NCBI RefSeq assembly: GCF_024494725.1
Contig: NZ_JANHDK010000004.1
Coordinates: 248,001-312,000 of the forward strand
Direction of reading: 5' to 3'
Length of the DNA stretch: 64,000 nt
Origin: Haloplanus ruber
GTDB taxonomy: Archaea > Halobacteriota > Halobacteria > Halobacteriales > Haloferacaceae
The notes under the pieces: generated by a model
The model's database searches: none
Seen by the model: the letters and a program-made list of their open reading frames with translations, nothing else
What the model was told of the DNA's origin: nothing
Part shown: positions 6,469 to 18,551 of the stretch, piece by piece
How the letters are laid out: every line of letters starts with the position of its first letter
Position numbering within the stretch: the stretch's first letter is position 1
Program-made: the position numbers and the translations under genes

Positions 6469-6693
6469 GTGTTATACATTACAGCCAGTCTAGTGGACAT
6501 ATCGAATATGGACCTGGTTAATTGACAGGTATTCTACTCTTTGGTTGCGTGTTAAGTAATCCCTACAACAGTTCTTAGACGCTAGTGTGCATATTTGTAG
6601 TATAATTGTTGCGGCCTTTGAGCCGAGTAGCTGTTGGATAGAATCTCTGTATTCAGCACGACTGCGGAAGTGTATCACTTACTGAGGATTTCA

Positions 6694-7017
6694 ATGAGGG
6701 CCATCGAATGGGGTGATCAAGGGTTACTCCACGCGGTCCGAGAGTTCAACACCGACAAGGTCCCGAACTGGCGGGATACTTACGATCCAAAGGAGTACGT
6801 GATCGTCAACGACGAGAAGCGTTCACGAGAACGGGTTGCGTTGGCTCACGGGGAGATCAGGTCGTACGATCCGTCGTACTACGAGACGGGGGTCGTCAGA
6901 GCTGTCGAAAGTGTGCTGTCGCCGATGGGCTGGGACGAGTCGGAGATTCGTCGGGAACCCACGGAAACACAGTTGACGACGCTTTCGGCGCTCGACGGAT
7001 CTTTTGATGGACTCTAA
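6694..7017 (+). CDS. Hypothetical protein beside the origin
   Basis: A 107-codon frame starting MRAIEWGDQGLLHAV and ending in ALDGSFDGL. The composition is acidic and haloarchaeal, with motif-like stretches WRDTYDPKEYVIVND and RSYDPSYYETGVVRAVE. I do not recognise a family. The stop lies 7 bp before the inverted repeat at 7024-7061 and the first ORB-like repeat, so it borders the origin. It may be the 3' part of a longer ancestral gene, since the frame is open upstream to 6634. About 225 bp of A+T-rich sequence separate it from the GIDE gene, with no gene seen there. Confidence 0.4.
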   Translation: MRAIEWGDQGLLHAVREFNTDKVPNWRDTYDPKEYVIVNDEKRSRERVALAHGEIRSYDPSYYETGVVRAVESVLSPMGWDESEIRREPTETQLTTLSALDGSFDGL

Positions 7018-7023
7018 CCCGAG

Positions 7024-7061
7024 TTACCCCACAGAGCAGAATATTTCGTTTTGTGGGGTAA
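7024..7061. promoter_or_regulatory. TTACCCCACA / TGTGGGGTAA inverted repeat, copy A
   Basis: Perfect 10-bp arms TTACCCCACA (7024-7033) and TGTGGGGTAA (7052-7061) separated by 18 bp of A+T-rich sequence. The first ORB-like repeat starts 19 bp further on. An equivalent arrangement exists at 13226-13310. The symmetry suggests a protein-binding site rather than a terminator. Confidence 0.75.
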
Positions 7062-7080
7062 TCTTCACAGCCAACCCAAA

Positions 7081-7901
7081 CACACCCCTCTATCGATGTG
7101 TTCGGTCTGACCGCCACTCTGAGCGTGAGCACTCAGAAAGCCCGCCTCCTCGACGTCGTTCGTGAAGCCACCCCGTGTTCAACTGATCGGGTGGCGGGAC
7201 CTGCCACCTCAAGCGGGCGGGAGTGTCAACGTGGAGTCGGTAACATTCCGTACTCTACGTAGTCAACTCGACAGAGATTGGAACGCTGAGACGTGTTTCG
7301 TCGGGGACAGTGGGATGAGTGACACACGCGAGCCCTTTCCGCCGGTCATCGAGAAGACAGACACACCCCTCTATCGATGTGTTCGGCGCATATGCTGACA
7401 GGGAGAGATAGAGGTCACCGAGGACGACCAGACAACTATCAGCTGGAAAACCACCGCCACAAGGCTCGTAGGACGAGGGAACGACAGAATACGGTGCCGC
7501 TCACACACCCCGAATTCTGACGAGAGAGACGGACAGGATCACGGCTCGACTGAACACATCGAACACATCGATAGAGGGGTGTGTGAGTGGCTAGTCTAGA
7601 AAGCTAGAAGAAGAAGGCGAAGCCGGGTTCTCGGTGACGGCGTTTGTGGCTCCCTCCTGCGCGATTTCTGGGGAATCGTGCGTATTTGGTCTCGTGCTTG
7701 CGTCAACGAAGTCTTCTCACCCCCCACCCTCTCGAGGGCGTGAACACATCGATAGAGGGGTGTGTCTGTTCGGTGGTTCGCGTTAACCTTGTGGAACACT
7801 TCGTCAGTCGTTTCCGCTGTCATCGTCGACTTCCAGTCGAAGCCGCGATATTTCCCGGAAGAATCGACTGATTCCACGGATCACACTTCGATAGGGGTGG
7901 G
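7081..7901. repeat. Left ORB-like repeat array of the replication origin
   Basis: Five copies of an element with core CACCCCTCTATCGATGTG. Two read forward (7081-7105 and 7362-7386). Two are inverted, reading GAACACATCGATAGAGGGG (7560-7583 and 7742-7764). A shorter inverted variant, CACTTCGATAGGGGTGGG, lies at 7884-7901, just before the orc1 start. The two forward copies are identical over 25 bp. The G-run at one end and placement around orc1/cdc6 match the general plan of haloarchaeal origin recognition boxes. The roughly 900 bp from 7018 to 7924 hold no convincing gene. Confidence 0.8.
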
Positions 7902-7924
7902 GAAGATTTTTGTCGTCGGACTGT

Positions 7925-9391
7925 ATGGTTCCCGGCATGGGTGCCGAGGATTCCGAGAACTCTTCATTTGATCCTGAGGTGGGGGGAGACGACTCGTCCA
8001 CGGATGACGAGACGACGCAGGTCGATCTCGCGTCGGGTTCCTCAGATTCAGAACCGGATTCTACCACCTCGTCAACCACGGAATCCGACGAGGAGACGTC
8101 CCAGTCCATCGAGGACATGTTACTCGAGTTCGACGAGCAAGAGGGACTGATCCGCGACCGGTCCCTCCTCGACCCGAACTACGTAGTCGAAGAGGACCGG
8201 ATCGTCGGCCGCGACGAACAACTCCAGGAAGTGACGAAGATGCTGCGGGTGGCGCTCGGCGATAACCGCCCGCCGAACCTCTTTCTCTACGGGCCATCCG
8301 GAACGGGCAAGTCCCTTATTACGAAGGCCGTTTGCCACAACATCAGCCGGATCTGTGAGACACGGGACATTCAGTTTGGGACGATCGAGGTCAACTGCCA
8401 AGATCTCGACACACTGGGCGTTGCTGTCTACGAACTGGCGAGCCAGGCCGCTGACGAAGCAGGTGTCGACATTGACGTTCCAAAACACGGCGTCGCGACC
8501 AAGGAAAAGTGGGACGAACTCTATCGAATCGTCAACGAGAACTTCGATTCCGTCGTGTTCGTCCTCGACGAACTCGATATGCTGGTGGGACGTCGTGATA
8601 AACAGGACCCGGCGTTTTCGCGACTGCTCTACCAACTCTCCCGAGCGGGAGCCAACGACGAACTGACCGCCTACATCTCTGTCGTTGCCATCTCGAACGA
8701 CGCTCGTATGATGGAGTCCGTCGGAAGTCGCGCGTTGAGTTCGTTCACTCCCGAGGATGTCCACTTCGACGACTACGATGCGAACCAACTCCAGTCGATT
8801 CTTCGCCGACGGCGGGATGCGTTCCACGACGACGTCTTGGACGGCGACGTGATTCCGCTCGCAGCGGCGTTTGCCGCGCAAACGCACGGCGATGCACGAA
8901 AAGCGATCGACCTGATGCGTGTCGCCGGCGAACTCGCCGAACGCGAAGGTGATGAACGCGTTCGCGAAGAGCACGTGCGTGCAGCGCAAGACAAAGTCGA
9001 GAAAAATCGCGTTCTCGAAGTGGTTCGTGGTATCAGTACACAGAAGAAACTCTGTCTCTACGCGACTGGCGCCGTTGCCGCGGAGACGAATAACGGCACG
9101 GCTCGCAGTACGACCGGCTATCGCGTGTATCAGTTTCTCACCGACTCCATCGACGCCGATCAGTATCACCAGGAGACGTACGTCAACAAAATGAAGGAAT
9201 TAACGACGTACTCGCTGGTCGACTTCGAGCGCCGCAGCCACGGTCCCAGTTCCGGGATGTTCCTTGAGTTCCAGTTCGGCGAACGTCCCGAGACAATTCT
9301 TGAGACGCTTCGCGAGGACTCCCGGATCGATATGGTCTCACAGGAGGAAGTCGAATCGGTTGTGAACGCGCAGATCCGAAACGAGACCTGA
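7925..9391 (+). CDS. orc1: Orc1/Cdc6 replication initiator
   Basis: An archaeal Orc1/Cdc6 AAA+ ATPase that binds origin recognition boxes and loads the replicative helicase. ATG 7925 gives 488 residues; a TTG at 7910 and an ATG at 7937 are alternatives. The Walker A GPSGTGKS is at 123-130, the Walker B VFVLDELDML near 211-220, sensor-1 AISND is present, and the lid and C-terminal winged-helix region are complete (GDARKAIDLMR, then RVYQFL). The first 65 or so residues are an acidic, Ser/Thr/Asp-rich extension not needed for the fold. ORB-like repeats lie on both sides of the gene, so it very likely acts on its own adjacent origin. Several orc1 paralogues are normal in haloarchaea; which replicon this serves cannot be told. 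Confidence 0.95.
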   Translation: MVPGMGAEDSENSSFDPEVGGDDSSTDDETTQVDLASGSSDSEPDSTTSSTTESDEETSQSIEDMLLEFDEQEGLIRDRSLLDPNYVVEEDRIVGRDEQLQEVTKMLRVALGDNRPPNLFLYGPSGTGKSLITKAVCHNISRICETRDIQFGTIEVNCQDLDTLGVAVYELASQAADEAGVDIDVPKHGVATKEKWDELYRIVNENFDSVVFVLDELDMLVGRRDKQDPAFSRLLYQLSRAGANDELTAYISVVAISNDARMMESVGSRALSSFTPEDVHFDDYDANQLQSILRRRRDAFHDDVLDGDVIPLAAAFAAQTHGDARKAIDLMRVAGELAEREGDERVREEHVRAAQDKVEKNRVLEVVRGISTQKKLCLYATGAVAAETNNGTARSTTGYRVYQFLTDSIDADQYHQETYVNKMKELTTYSLVDFERRSHGPSSGMFLEFQFGERPETILETLREDSRIDMVSQEEVESVVNAQIRNET

Positions 9392-9427
9392 GCGCGGACC
9401 GCTCCACGTCCCGTATCGTACGGGCGG

Positions 9428-9758
9428 CACCCCTCTATCGATGTGTATCGGCCGGATGTTACCGCGTCTCATACTGTACCTGTTCCGTGTGTTGCGCTCG
9501 TGAGGCCTGCTGCGTCAGACGCGCGTCACACACCTCTATCGATGTGTATTCGAGCATAGTATCGACTCTCGCGGCAGAAATCGGTGGTCTTGAATCGACC
9601 ACTTTTGCGGATCGATCCGCTGACTGACGGCAGAGCAGCGCCCGTTTCGATGCGCTTCGAACTTGATCATCGTTCGTCTGCTTCGCAGCACACGCACCGC
9701 TATCGATGTGTTGGTCGCGCGCTCTGCTTCCACGCACCCCTCTATCGATGTGTATTCG
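9428..9758 (+). repeat. Right ORB-like repeat array
   Basis: Four forward copies of the origin repeat: 9428-9451 (CACCCCTCTATCGATGTG), 9529-9552 (CACACCTCTATCGATGTG), 9691-9714 (GCACCGCTATCGATGTG, one base shorter) and 9731-9758. Three of the four continue with TATTCG or TATCGG. Apart from the gene remnant on the minus strand, the space 9392-9980 has no gene. Confidence 0.8.
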
Positions 9759-9767
9759 CGAAAATTG

Positions 9768-9925
9768 CGTCGTGGCCTTCGACGGCACGTCGTCCGGGAT
9801 GTCCTCCGGTCGCTCGTCGATATCGTCCCCGTCCGACCTCTCTTCGAGACGGGCCTCGCGAGCTTTGTGTTCTGCCAGCTTCTCGGCGTAGTGTGCCACG
9901 TGCTGGGGTTGGCGAGTCGCCGCTG
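9768..9925 (-). pseudogene. Truncated paralogue of the 12834-13223 protein
   Basis: The minus strand reads PQHVAHYAEKLAEHKAREAR, then ERPEDIPDDVPSKAT. This matches the middle of the protein at 12834-13223 (SPERLEAVAAYAADLAEWK, then DPEDYEDVPTSGAY) in order and spacing. The frame then runs into ORB repeat sequence at 9758 and loses homology, so the 3' third is missing. It is a broken copy of the same family, cut at the repeat array. Confidence 0.55.
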
Positions 9926-9980
9926 AGTGTGTTTTAGAGCGCAGCATCCCTCCTTTCTACGGCACGCTCATCGCGCATGC

Positions 9981-12545
9981 TCAGCACTCTGCAAAGTCGA
10001 CACCGGTAATCTCGAAGCGTGCGCCACCTGCGTCACTGCTGGTCACAGTGATGTCCCAGGCGTGAGCCGCGACGACCCGTTTGACGATATTTAGCCCGAA
10101 GCCGGTGCCGTCGTGGCTCGTGGAATAGCCTATTTCGAAGCAGTTCTCGCGTTCCTCCACAGGAATGCCCACCCCATCATCCTCAATGTAGAATCCGCCG
10201 TCAATATCGCCAACGGTGATCGATACCTCCTCGTCGTTGTGGTCAACCGCGTTCGAAAAGAGATTCTCCAACAGCTGCTTGAGTCGGGCTTTTTCGGCGA
10301 CAACCGTCGCGTCTGTCTTGACCGAAACCGAAACGTCCGGCGGGACGGCCGTCAGTGCACACTCGCCGGCGAGGTCGTCGAGGCTTACTGACGCGGGCTC
10401 CGACCCTGTCTCCCCCTGGCGTGCGAGCGTCAGCAGGTCGTCGAGAAGTTGCTCCATGCGCTCGACCGACCGCCAGCACCGCTCTAGGTGGTCTTCATCG
10501 TCTGTGTCGATCAACTCGAGCGACCCGGACAGCGTATGTAGTGGGTTCTGAATATCGTGGCTGACGACCGAGACGAACTCGTCGAGGCGCTCGTTCTGGC
10601 GCTTGAGCTTGCGCTCGCGTTGTTTGCGGTCCGTGATGTCGCGGAAGTAGCCCTGGTTCAGATACTCGCCGTCGATTTCGACGGTTTGGGCGTTGATTTC
10701 CACGGGAATTTCCTCGCCGTCCGCGTTGAGAACATACACATCCACCTGTTCGCGCAGCGCTTCGGCACGATTGCCTTCGGACGTCACGTGCTCTTCAAAA
10801 ATTCGTGCGTACTCCTCCACCTTCTCGGGGGGATGAAGATCCGTCTGGTGCATGCCGACAATCTCCTCGCGGGGCCGGTCGAGTAACCGTGTCGCCATCT
10901 GGTTTGTCTTCTGTATCTCGCCCGTTTCGGCATTAGCGATGAAGATCGCATCGGGGGCTGTATCGAGAAGTGTCCGGTACCGCTCGGTGGTCTGTTCGAG
11001 ATCCTGTTCGCGTTCCTTACGCTCGGTAATATCTGTGACAACCCCAATATAGCGGGGCGAAAGCCCATTGATATCGGTGAATTCGGCTCGTGCGCGAACC
11101 CACAACAGTCTGTCGTCGGCCGTTCGAATACGGTACTCGGCTTCGAAGGGATCACGCGACGGAAGTGCGTCTTCGATAGCAGCTTCGAGCACTTGGAGAT
11201 CACCTTCATAAACGCGCTTGGTAAAGGCCTCGTAGGTACCCTCAAACGTGCCGGGTTCGAGGTCGAACAGCCGCTCGGTGGATTCGTGCCACACCACTTC
11301 GTCGGTCTCTGGCTCCCATTCCCAGACTCCGGCGTTCGACCCTTCAAGTGCGACTGTCAGTCGCTGGCGTTGCTGTTCAAGCTCCTGCTTGCGTTCTTTG
11401 CGCTCGGTGATGTCTTCTTGATTTCCGAGATACCTGACGATCTGGCCGTCGTCGTCGTAAATCGGAGTGATTGTCAGACGGTTCCAGAACTCTGTTCCGT
11501 CCTTTCTGTCGTTGCGTAGTTCGACACAGACTGATTCTTCGTTATCAACGGCCTCACGGAGGGTTGCAATCTTTTCGGAGTCTGTGTTCTCGCTCTGGAG
11601 GAATCGGCAGTTGCGTCCGAGTGACTCTTCGCGTGAATAGCCGGTCATCTCTTCGAATGCGTCGTTGACATAGGTCAGCGGTTCGTCTGGCTGTGAGGGA
11701 TCGGCTAGGGTAATTGGGATGTTCGCGTCGTCGATAGCTTGCTGGAGGAGGCGAAGTTCCCGCTGGCGGTCCTCCCTGTCTGTGACGTCGTTGATGGCTC
11801 CACGAATCGTCGTCGTGTCTCCGTTGGTTGTCACCGGCCTATAGGTTACATCCAACAACTTTTCTCTCGCATTTGGATGTTTATAGCGGTACGTTCTGCG
11901 TGTCTCCTCGCCCGTCTCGATGGTTTGCTGGATCGTTTGCTTAATGTTCTTCTGGTCGTCTGGATGAAAATGTTGCAAGCTCTCCTTGATGCTGAGGTTC
12001 GCCTGTTCGGGAGCATTCAGTATCTGGCAGGCTCCATCTGTCAGGAGGACTTCCCCAGTATCAGTATCTAGTTCGAAGCCGCCGGTATTGCCGGCAAACT
12101 CCGTTAGTCGCATCAGTTGTTCCTGTCTGTCAGCCCGCTTGGCCTCGCGCCGGGCCTGAATGGCATTCAGAATCCGGTTGGCCAGGAGTTCGTACTTTTC
12201 TGACCCTGAGCCCTTCTGAAGATAGTCTGTTGCGTCTAGAGCGATAGCCTCGCTAGCGACGGCCTCACTGCCCCTACCGGTAAAGAGAATAAACGGAAGA
12301 CTGGGGTACTCCTCTCGGACCGCTCGCAAGAATTCGAGCCCGTCCATACCGGGCATATTGTAATCCGAGACCACACAGTCAGGCGGGCTATCACGAATCT
12401 TCTCCAACCCCTCGTCGGCACTCGTTGCTGTCTCGACAGCGAGTCGGTCATCCTCGCGCTCAAGAAAGGCCCCGGTCAGATCCGTAACCGAGGGCTCGTC
12501 GTCGACATGGAGGACCCGAACCTCGCCTTGAGAGCTGAGTTGCAT
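9981..12545 (-). CDS. Receiver-PAS-LOV-PAS histidine kinase, probable blue-light sensor
   Basis: An 854-residue soluble kinase. The receiver (HVDDE; Asp61 in SDYNMPGMDG) is followed by a PAS domain (about 150-255) and then a domain at about 272-385 with a complete LOV signature: TLADPSQPDEPLTYVNDAF, GRNCRFLQ with Cys313, FWN with Asn355, and GNQEDIT with Gln376. Two further PAS domains follow, then the H box SHDIQNP, the N box LLENLFSNAVDHN and the G boxes IEDDGVGIP and GTGFGLNIV. In known LOV proteins the GRNCRFLQ Cys forms the light-induced flavin adduct, so light sensing is a fair inference. ATG 12545 is chosen because it starts the receiver fold as in the paralogue at 2950. It seems to be the last gene of a three-gene operon. 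Confidence 0.9.
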   Translation of the reverse strand: MQLSSQGEVRVLHVDDEPSVTDLTGAFLEREDDRLAVETATSADEGLEKIRDSPPDCVVSDYNMPGMDGLEFLRAVREEYPSLPFILFTGRGSEAVASEAIALDATDYLQKGSGSEKYELLANRILNAIQARREAKRADRQEQLMRLTEFAGNTGGFELDTDTGEVLLTDGACQILNAPEQANLSIKESLQHFHPDDQKNIKQTIQQTIETGEETRRTYRYKHPNAREKLLDVTYRPVTTNGDTTTIRGAINDVTDREDRQRELRLLQQAIDDANIPITLADPSQPDEPLTYVNDAFEEMTGYSREESLGRNCRFLQSENTDSEKIATLREAVDNEESVCVELRNDRKDGTEFWNRLTITPIYDDDGQIVRYLGNQEDITERKERKQELEQQRQRLTVALEGSNAGVWEWEPETDEVVWHESTERLFDLEPGTFEGTYEAFTKRVYEGDLQVLEAAIEDALPSRDPFEAEYRIRTADDRLLWVRARAEFTDINGLSPRYIGVVTDITERKEREQDLEQTTERYRTLLDTAPDAIFIANAETGEIQKTNQMATRLLDRPREEIVGMHQTDLHPPEKVEEYARIFEEHVTSEGNRAEALREQVDVYVLNADGEEIPVEINAQTVEIDGEYLNQGYFRDITDRKQRERKLKRQNERLDEFVSVVSHDIQNPLHTLSGSLELIDTDDEDHLERCWRSVERMEQLLDDLLTLARQGETGSEPASVSLDDLAGECALTAVPPDVSVSVKTDATVVAEKARLKQLLENLFSNAVDHNDEEVSITVGDIDGGFYIEDDGVGIPVEERENCFEIGYSTSHDGTGFGLNIVKRVVAAHAWDITVTSSDAGGARFEITGVDFAEC

Positions 12546-12546
12546 A

Positions 12547-12804
12547 CTACCTACGTTTGTGACTGTCGTAAAAAAATGGTGCGACAAAATCAGAATTGAA
12601 ACTTGACTCGTAGGCCTGAGCGACCAGCTTGGAGTCACTGACCGAAATAAGCAGCTCCCCGATGCTGACAGTATCATTGCTGAGGATTTCAACAATGCCA
12701 TTCCGGACGAATTCCTCAACGTCGGCTCGTGGTTCACACGATTTCCGAAGACTCGCGAACGCATGTCGAATGCAACGAAGCAGCTCCCGCCTCACCGACT
12801 GCAT
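12547..12804 (-). CDS. Small hypothetical protein upstream of the LOV kinase
   Basis: An 85-codon frame starting MQSVRRELLRCIRHAFASLR and ending FYDSHKRR. It lies 29 bp after the 12834-13223 gene and its stop is 1 bp from the kinase start, spacing typical of an operon. No motif is recognised; the sequence could form helices and a short strand. Codon use is less GC-biased than its neighbours. It may instead be an untranslated leader, so support is mainly positional. Confidence 0.35.
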   Translation of the reverse strand: MQSVRRELLRCIRHAFASLRKSCEPRADVEEFVRNGIVEILSNDTVSIGELLISVSDSKLVAQAYESSFNSDFVAPFFYDSHKRR

Positions 12805-12833
12805 CCGGTGTGCCTCGCAAGGCTACACTGCGA

Positions 12834-13223
12834 TCACTCTCGTGGATTGACCGGCGCAATATACTCGTTTTTCCAGGAATCGCCCTCTCGCCACTGCCAG
12901 TAGAAGTACCGGTACGATTTATCACCGGTTTCCTTCGTCGTTTTCACCGTGATGTACGCGCCGCTCGTCGGGACGTCTTCGTAATCCTCCGGATCCGTCG
13001 AGATCTCACGCTCGGCCAGCTCCTCGAGTTCTTCCCCATCGACCTCTTCCTCGGCCCGTCGGCGTTCGAGTTTTTCCTGCCGCTGTCGACGTTTCCACTC
13101 CGCCAGATCAGCCGCGTACGCCGCGACTGCTTCCAGCCGTTCCGGGGATTGGCTCTCGAGTGGCTCTCGAAGGTACTTCGGCAACTGCGGCGCGGGCGGT
13201 TTCCCTCGATCGTCCCCAGCCAT
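12834..13223 (-). CDS. Conserved haloarchaeal protein (DUF6788-like)
   Basis: A 129-residue, highly charged protein. The first half is a helical, Glu/Arg-rich segment (EAVAAYAADLAEWKRRQ, then RRRAEEEVDGEELEEL). The second half is a small domain with EDVPTSGAYITVKT and YRYFYWQWREGDSWKNEY, which matches my memory of a haloarchaeal family (DUF6788-like) with a YYYWQWREG motif. The function is unknown. Its start codon lies 2 bp from the inverted repeat at 13226-13265, so that element probably contains its promoter or operator. A broken paralogue lies at 9768-9925 next to the origin repeats, suggesting a link with the origin or with mobile replicons. Confidence 0.65.
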   Translation of the reverse strand: MAGDDRGKPPAPQLPKYLREPLESQSPERLEAVAAYAADLAEWKRRQRQEKLERRRAEEEVDGEELEELAEREISTDPEDYEDVPTSGAYITVKTTKETGDKSYRYFYWQWREGDSWKNEYIAPVNPRE

Positions 13224-18393: not shown

Positions 18394-18551
18394 GCGGCAC
18401 TTCGATACAGGCTCTACGCCGACCCCGAATGCTTTCATCTCGTCTACTCGATTTCGCAATCGAGCGATAGGGACGTCGATGGGTGGGCGGAAGTTGCATC
18501 TACCGTGTCCGCGCGCGGTCTTAATGTGGACTCGGCGCGTATTCTGTGCCG

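Follow-up and report, generated by a model that had tools for sequence, protein, structure and literature searches.

The region 7080-9760 of the analysed window is very probably an orc1/cdc6-dependent replication origin of the extrachromosomal (plasmid or minichromosome) type, organised as a replicator-initiator cassette. Judged by its sequence, the locus is a member of a horizontally shared orc1/cdc6 replicator-initiator family whose loci sit mainly on plasmids and whose initiators and ORBs diverge together. The window is the whole 64-kb stretch of DNA that was analysed, equal to C4:248001-312000 in a genome of 3.28 Mb and 9 contigs. This kind of origin is already known, and the locus adds a further member to it.

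Polar repeats around one orc1 gene

Nine copies of the core CCTCTATCGATGTG were found around one orc1 gene in the window; seven are exact, one has a single mismatch (9697, forward strand) and one has two (7884, reverse strand). Five copies lie to the left of the gene, two forward and three inverted, and four lie to the right, all forward, so that the scan confirmed the count and layout given in the initial annotation (Table 1). The right-hand boxes form a cluster at 9432-9752, directly downstream of the initiator gene. Allowing up to three mismatches, 16 matches were obtained in the 64-kb window versus 5.6 expected. Copies with zero to two mismatches cluster around orc1, and elsewhere in the window there is one more two-mismatch match, at 18398. 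Throughout the genome, nine places match with at most one mismatch, eight at the orc1 locus and one at C4:32196, and a reversed-pattern control gave no match at this threshold in the nine contigs. Most boxes end in GGGG(TG)n, with a G run shorter than in most boxes of the genome's own Orc1 paralogs. The ATCGAT palindrome beside the G run had been singled out as special, but it looks ordinary for this group.

Table 1. Features of the orc1 locus, in window coordinates
Feature	Position	Strand	Basis
Imperfect palindrome, 19-nt arms, between upstream ORF and ORB field	7024..7061	.	Terminator-like; matched in locus L088
ORB F1 core, exact	7087..7100	+	Window scan
ORB F2 core, exact; fewest mismatches among the five upstream ORBs	7368..7381	+	Window scan, 35-locus comparison
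R1 composite element, kept in clades A and B	7552..7617	+	Locus comparison
Composite part: half-site GAACACATC	7552-7560	+	Locus comparison
Composite part: ORB R1 (core 7564-7577)	7561-7585		
ORB R1 core, exact, inside composite element	7564-7577	-	Window scan
Composite part: GT repeat	7580-7589	+	Locus comparison
Composite part: CTAG	7591/7596/7604	+	Locus comparison
Composite part: purine tract AGAAGAAGAAGG	7606-7617	+	Locus comparison
Conserved C-run immediately before ORB R2	7720..7729	+	Locus comparison
ORB R2 core, exact	7745..7758	-	Window scan
Conserved half-site GAACACTTCGTC without G run	7794..7805	+	Locus comparison
ORB R3, conserved weak copy, two mismatches, adjoins orc1 promoter	7884..7897	-	Scan, 35-locus comparison
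Conserved A/T block AAGATTTTT, candidate orc1 promoter	7903..7911	+	Conservation; function inferred
orc1/cdc6 initiator gene; 484 aa counted from ATG, frame open from TTG 7910	7937..9391	+	ORF, profile matches
Downstream ORB D1 core, exact	9432..9445	+	Window scan
Downstream ORB D2 core, exact	9533..9546	+	Window scan
Downstream ORB D3 core, one mismatch	9697..9710	+	Window scan
Downstream ORB D4 core, exact	9739..9752	+	Window scan
Small protein, 129 aa, origin-linked family	12834..13223	-	Homologue distribution

The gene directly adjacent to the ORB field encodes an Orc1/Cdc6 protein (TIGR02928, 428 bits; Cdc6_lid and Cdc6_C domains) and is one of eight Cdc6_lid genes in the genome. Its closest relative, 95% identical, lies on plasmid pCBA1112-01 of Haloplanus rubicundus. 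Because the annotation of the Haloplanus rubicundus gene begins at the matching codon, ATG 7937 is probably the start codon rather than TTG 7910. An acidic N-terminal extension of about 57 residues precedes the SIEDML block; its length varies in clade A, the relatives that share this box, a similar one is found in clade C, and it is short in clade B. The presence of the extension, reported in the initial annotation, was thus verified, but it is not unusual, since clade A relatives and clade C also have one. A sequence search identified the AAA+ plus winged-helix initiators 2v1u (E 1.7e-48) and 2qby (E 1.4e-46). Foldseek gave the same best matches from a weak AlphaFold2 model (mean pLDDT 53), which was used solely for the order of helices and strands in the winged-helix domain.

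Linkage of box and initiator across genomes

The host's family was surveyed in 119 genomes, a close (clade A) Orc1 being defined by an identity of 73% or more; 18 genomes carry such a protein, one of them broken. At least two exact boxes are present in all 18, versus 4 of the 101 genomes without a close Orc1 (Fisher p 8e-18, the genomes being treated as if not kin). Among the box-bearing genomes without a close Orc1, the assembly of G041 is fragmented, and the boxes of G059 occur singly on two contigs. Of the 126 exact boxes, 98 are at most 2.5 kb from a close orc1; the figure rises to 102 with a circular contig C2 in G081, as boxes at both of its ends suggest. The remaining 24 are mostly singletons, fragmented-assembly pieces or relics. 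The repeat is mostly found beside close Orc1 homologues rather than scattered away from orc1 genes, the outcome that the initial annotation had named as refuting. One relic (G090) retains the downstream array and, of the Orc1, no more than the final 42 residues. Another (G088) has kept the upstream field and composite element; next to them comes an Orc1 of 46% identity that has six to seven boxes itself. In G114 orc1 is broken. In L202 (3100-6500), the orphaned upstream half adjoins an origin of another Orc1 family that is complete, a possible snapshot of initiator replacement.

Co-divergence and layout in sister clades

A scan of the genome collection yielded 79 loci. Clade A carries the box of the window, the Orc1 of sister clade B is 67-70% identical and accompanied by the box CCCCTATCGATTTG, and clade C, about 55% identical to clade B, has the box TTTACACATCGATGACGGGGGG (L091, L092). 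A quick tree of 55 proteins, with long branches among paralogs, recovered A, B and C as groups, each split off by a single branch, and mixed host families; next to C stands L095, a paralog from the same genome as the window with TTACAACTCGACAACGGGGGG-like boxes. Altogether, five of the seven other Orc1 loci in this genome have clearly different boxes, and none were found at the other two. At L095 4625-4914 (C4 near 54 kb), five ORB copies stand in a 66-base tandem array downstream of the Orc1.

Boxes specific to this Orc1 are the best reading because box, layout and gene travel together across genera, because the box shifts with the initiator in sister clades, and because the other Orc1 genes of the genome have other boxes or none. 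The initial proposal of an origin with Orc1-specific boxes thus appears well founded in the linkage across genera and the co-divergence of the clades.

The order of two forward copies, three inverted copies, gene and forward copies is the same across genera, and neighbour genes vary between plasmids. At one mismatch or less, 57 anchored clade A loci, the window and three plasmid loci included, have 115 forward and 131 inverted boxes upstream, 152 forward and 4 inverted downstream, one within the gene and 29 in other parts of the stretches. The other three of the 60 clade A loci were not counted (L083 was not entered; L085 and L087 could not be anchored). The corresponding values for 23 clade B loci are 51 and 56 upstream, 0 and 60 downstream, and 9 elsewhere. 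Thus, the orientation of the downstream array is fixed within a clade and opposite between clades, although the loci are related and these counts are interdependent. Such an opposite array in a sister clade was not met in the papers searched.

The chances are about even that the origin consists of the upstream field only, and that the downstream array is an Orc1-titrating sink that comes and goes. A basal group of clade A (L055-L057) has upstream boxes but none downstream within 900 bases, and this, the differing array orientation in clades A and B and the oriC2D precedent discussed below are consistent with a sink. On the other hand, an orientation nearly fixed per clade would be needless for pure titration, even if the relatedness of the loci weakens this point.

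Comparison of 57 A and 26 B proteins (L052 and L055-L058 excluded from A) revealed 59 of 430 compared positions to be fixed differently. Eight fall in the 19 residues 437-455 (p 0.0018) and none in 416-436 (p 0.04), both regions having been picked after the fact. The low-confidence model predicts that residues 420-434 form a helix and 437-456 a strand pair (same numbering), which we take to be the recognition helix and the wing. Fixed differences are enriched in the predicted wing (p 0.002, region picked after the fact), and the core ATCGAT and the predicted recognition-helix region are unchanged between clades A and B. Clades A, B and C represent a large natural series in which initiator and box change jointly, with ATCGAT and the putative recognition-helix region constant between A and B, and this should make origin specificity directly testable by swaps.

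Upstream anatomy and the R1 composite element

The inner anatomy was compared across 35 clade A loci that have two forward and three inverted boxes upstream. In these, mismatches average 0.17, 0.06, 0.40, 0.14 and 1.29 for F1, F2, R1, R2 and R3, respectively. The promoter-proximal R3 is consistently weakened (CACTTCGAT) and is followed by the conserved A/T block, a candidate BRE/TATA element; a conserved weak ORB beside the orc1 promoter was not met in the papers searched. The AT content of the upstream segments is 46-51% versus 41% in the flanks. A sharp AT-rich unwinding block was not found in the window copy, and the AT-richest 40-nt stretch of the window (60%) lies left of F1.

ORB R1 is embedded in a composite of conserved sub-elements. 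Its tandem half-site passes a strict pattern at 34 of 59 loci, with several of the 25 failures differing by one or two bases. CTAG is missing from some clade A composites (e.g. several Halorubrum loci) and the purine tract stays. In clade A the longest purine run of the upstream region comes after the first inverted box at 41 of 60 loci, starting 17-34 nt beyond the box core in 35 of these. The longest run in clade B comes after the second inverted box (19 of 26 loci; 25-33 nt in 18). The runs average 15.9 (A) and 18.3 nt (B), compared with 8.8 and 9.1 for control runs. The tract has the form GAA/GAGAA, and a G-G spacing of 3 accounts for 51% (A) and 43% (B) versus 16% after shuffling, counting only tracts after the box and dropping the others. 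A strict trio repeat was rejected, as spacing 3 dominates but spacings of 2 are frequent. The tract was likewise rejected as a general haloarchaeal feature, five other origins of the same genome being without it (longest purine or pyrimidine runs 8-13). Its polarity is presumably opposite to that of the bacterial DnaA-trio.

In the article texts searched, no account was met of an ORB that is followed by a GT repeat, CTAG and a purine tract of the GAA type. It is rather unlikely that the R1 composite is a dedicated strand-opening or helicase-loading element, in which Orc1 on R1 would extend along, or pass MCM to, a defined purine strand. If true, the composite would follow in archaea the same logic as the box-plus-trio system of bacteria, and would take the place of a plain AT-rich element in replicons that are GC-rich and high-salt. 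It provides a concrete candidate for the opening element otherwise missing from haloarchaeal origins of this family.

Replicon context

This Orc1 is encoded by the sole Cdc6_lid gene of the replicon in 9 of 11 complete plasmids. Plasmid boxes are mostly confined to the orc1 locus, with single strays in NC_012030, NC_007427 and CP100457. Box pairs far from the sole Orc1 were observed in NZ_CP040638 (63748/63784) and EU080937 (138709/138829). GC skew was tried as support and discarded. Among the nine single-Orc1 plasmids of the 11 (W02 and W06, with more than one Orc1, were excluded), the locus lies within 4% of an extremum in five (W03, W04, W09, W10, W11), with mixed polarity (three maxima, two minima), W10 and W11 having very similar box positions; on contig C4 there is no extremum near the locus. 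A virus as carrier was also rejected, three viral contigs having one box each and none a relative of the Orc1; at locus L199 the box sits inside a reading frame.

The 360-kb contig C4 carries three Orc1 genes, i.e. two further Orc1/ORB sets, so the set in the window may be idle in this strain. It is possible, though on the improbable side, that the locus does belong to the origin family but lies dormant or is decaying here, and that another C4 set fires. The three Orc1 genes on one contig and the relics elsewhere (G090, G088 and the broken orc1 of G114) point in that direction, whereas the gene is open and intact, the layout complete and seven boxes exact.

Neighbouring genes

The 129-aa protein has no Pfam or NCBIfam match. 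All five of its homologues in the same genome are on C4, at most 6 kb from one of the three Orc1 genes. Of 13 complete plasmids, 10 encode at least one member of the family, mostly no farther than 2.5 kb from an Orc1, and members are found near orc1 at 21 of 64 clade A, 15 of 26 clade B and 3 of 4 clade C loci. The distribution suggests that the protein is possibly an origin companion; no account of a small origin-linked protein beside orc1 was found in the article texts searched. Between the downstream ORB array and this gene lie about 3 kb (9778-12835) with a 927-aa PAS/receiver sensor histidine kinase, a segment that the Haloplanus rubicundus plasmid is without. An ORF at 9459-9947 (reverse strand) overlaps the downstream boxes. 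Over part of its length it is similar to relatives of the 129-aa protein family from L009 and L120, so it is perhaps a gene remnant; when it was compared directly with the 129-aa protein itself, no real match was obtained. The upstream ORF at 6634-7017 (forward strand) corresponds to the end of a gene for a type B DNA polymerase (NF004418 positions 649-715 of 717), and some related origins have an annotated polymerase gene nearby.

ParA genes near orc1 in some relatives and the many boxes outside the presumed core replicator would fit partition (centromere-like) or regulatory sites of another plasmid protein that flank orc1 by chance, but this is highly improbable, as the box changes along with the Orc1 clade, shows the polar palindrome-plus-G structure of ORBs and is retained next to differing neighbour genes.

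Proposed mechanism

For the preferred reading, an Orc1-dependent origin, we infer the following mode of action. The encoded Orc1 would bind its own ORBs (GAACACATCGATAGAGGGGTGTG) with polarity, and the inverted boxes F1/F2 versus R1/R2 would mark the replicator. Opening and MCM loading would take place between F2 and R2, with the R1 composite as the most likely site. R3, the weakened box by the promoter, could allow autoregulation of orc1 by its product. The downstream array may titrate Orc1 and hold firing down, for which oriC2D of Haloarcula hispanica is a precedent. The lack of a clear AT-rich unwinding element in this copy, the weak and mixed GC-skew signal, the two further Orc1/ORB sets on C4, the short G run of the box (GGGG) and the ORBs that lie far from any orc1 count against the origin reading.

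Comparison with known systems

The main text of Wu et al. 2012 (PMC3528665), as far as it was covered, describes ORBs that are specific to a family, some cdc6 genes flanked by ORBs at both ends, and mobility of such pairs. Its Table 1 lists pL131 with one Cdc6, which is origin-associated; pL131 of Natronomonas pharaonis carries the same locus and family and was among the plasmids compared here. The origins of that study are alike in having a gene flanked by inverted ORBs with a G-string and a box that is specific to the Orc/Cdc6 family and mobile between replicons. They differ in that the box sequence and inner anatomy are absent from the main text searched. No account of the box letters or of archaeal trio-like elements was found in the article texts searched; the box logo may already be in print.

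In the parts covered of Wu et al. (PMC3936714), a downstream ORB cluster negatively controls oriC2 of Haloarcula hispanica, and each replicon needs one active origin/cdc6 pairing. The oriC2-cdc6E locus with oriC2D likewise has ORBs on both sides of the initiator gene and a downstream cluster, with 11 downstream ORBs versus four here; it was judged a different origin by name only. The Orc1-ORB complexes of Aeropyrum pernix and Saccharolobus solfataricus (2v1u, 2qby) contain the same AAA+ plus winged-helix type of initiator. The likeness noted is that of the proteins, which differ in the haloarchaeal acidic N-terminus. The Sulfolobus ucm, according to the part of the source covered (PMC12141716), indicates that a motif between ORBs can be essential. 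The DnaA-trio consensus 3'-GAT-5' given in the covered part of PMC10721633 is not matched by the GAA/GAGAA tract with its mixed period of 3 and 2, but the bacterial BUS/DnaA-trio system described there shares with the R1 composite the arrangement of initiator box, spacer and one-strand trinucleotide-rich tract.
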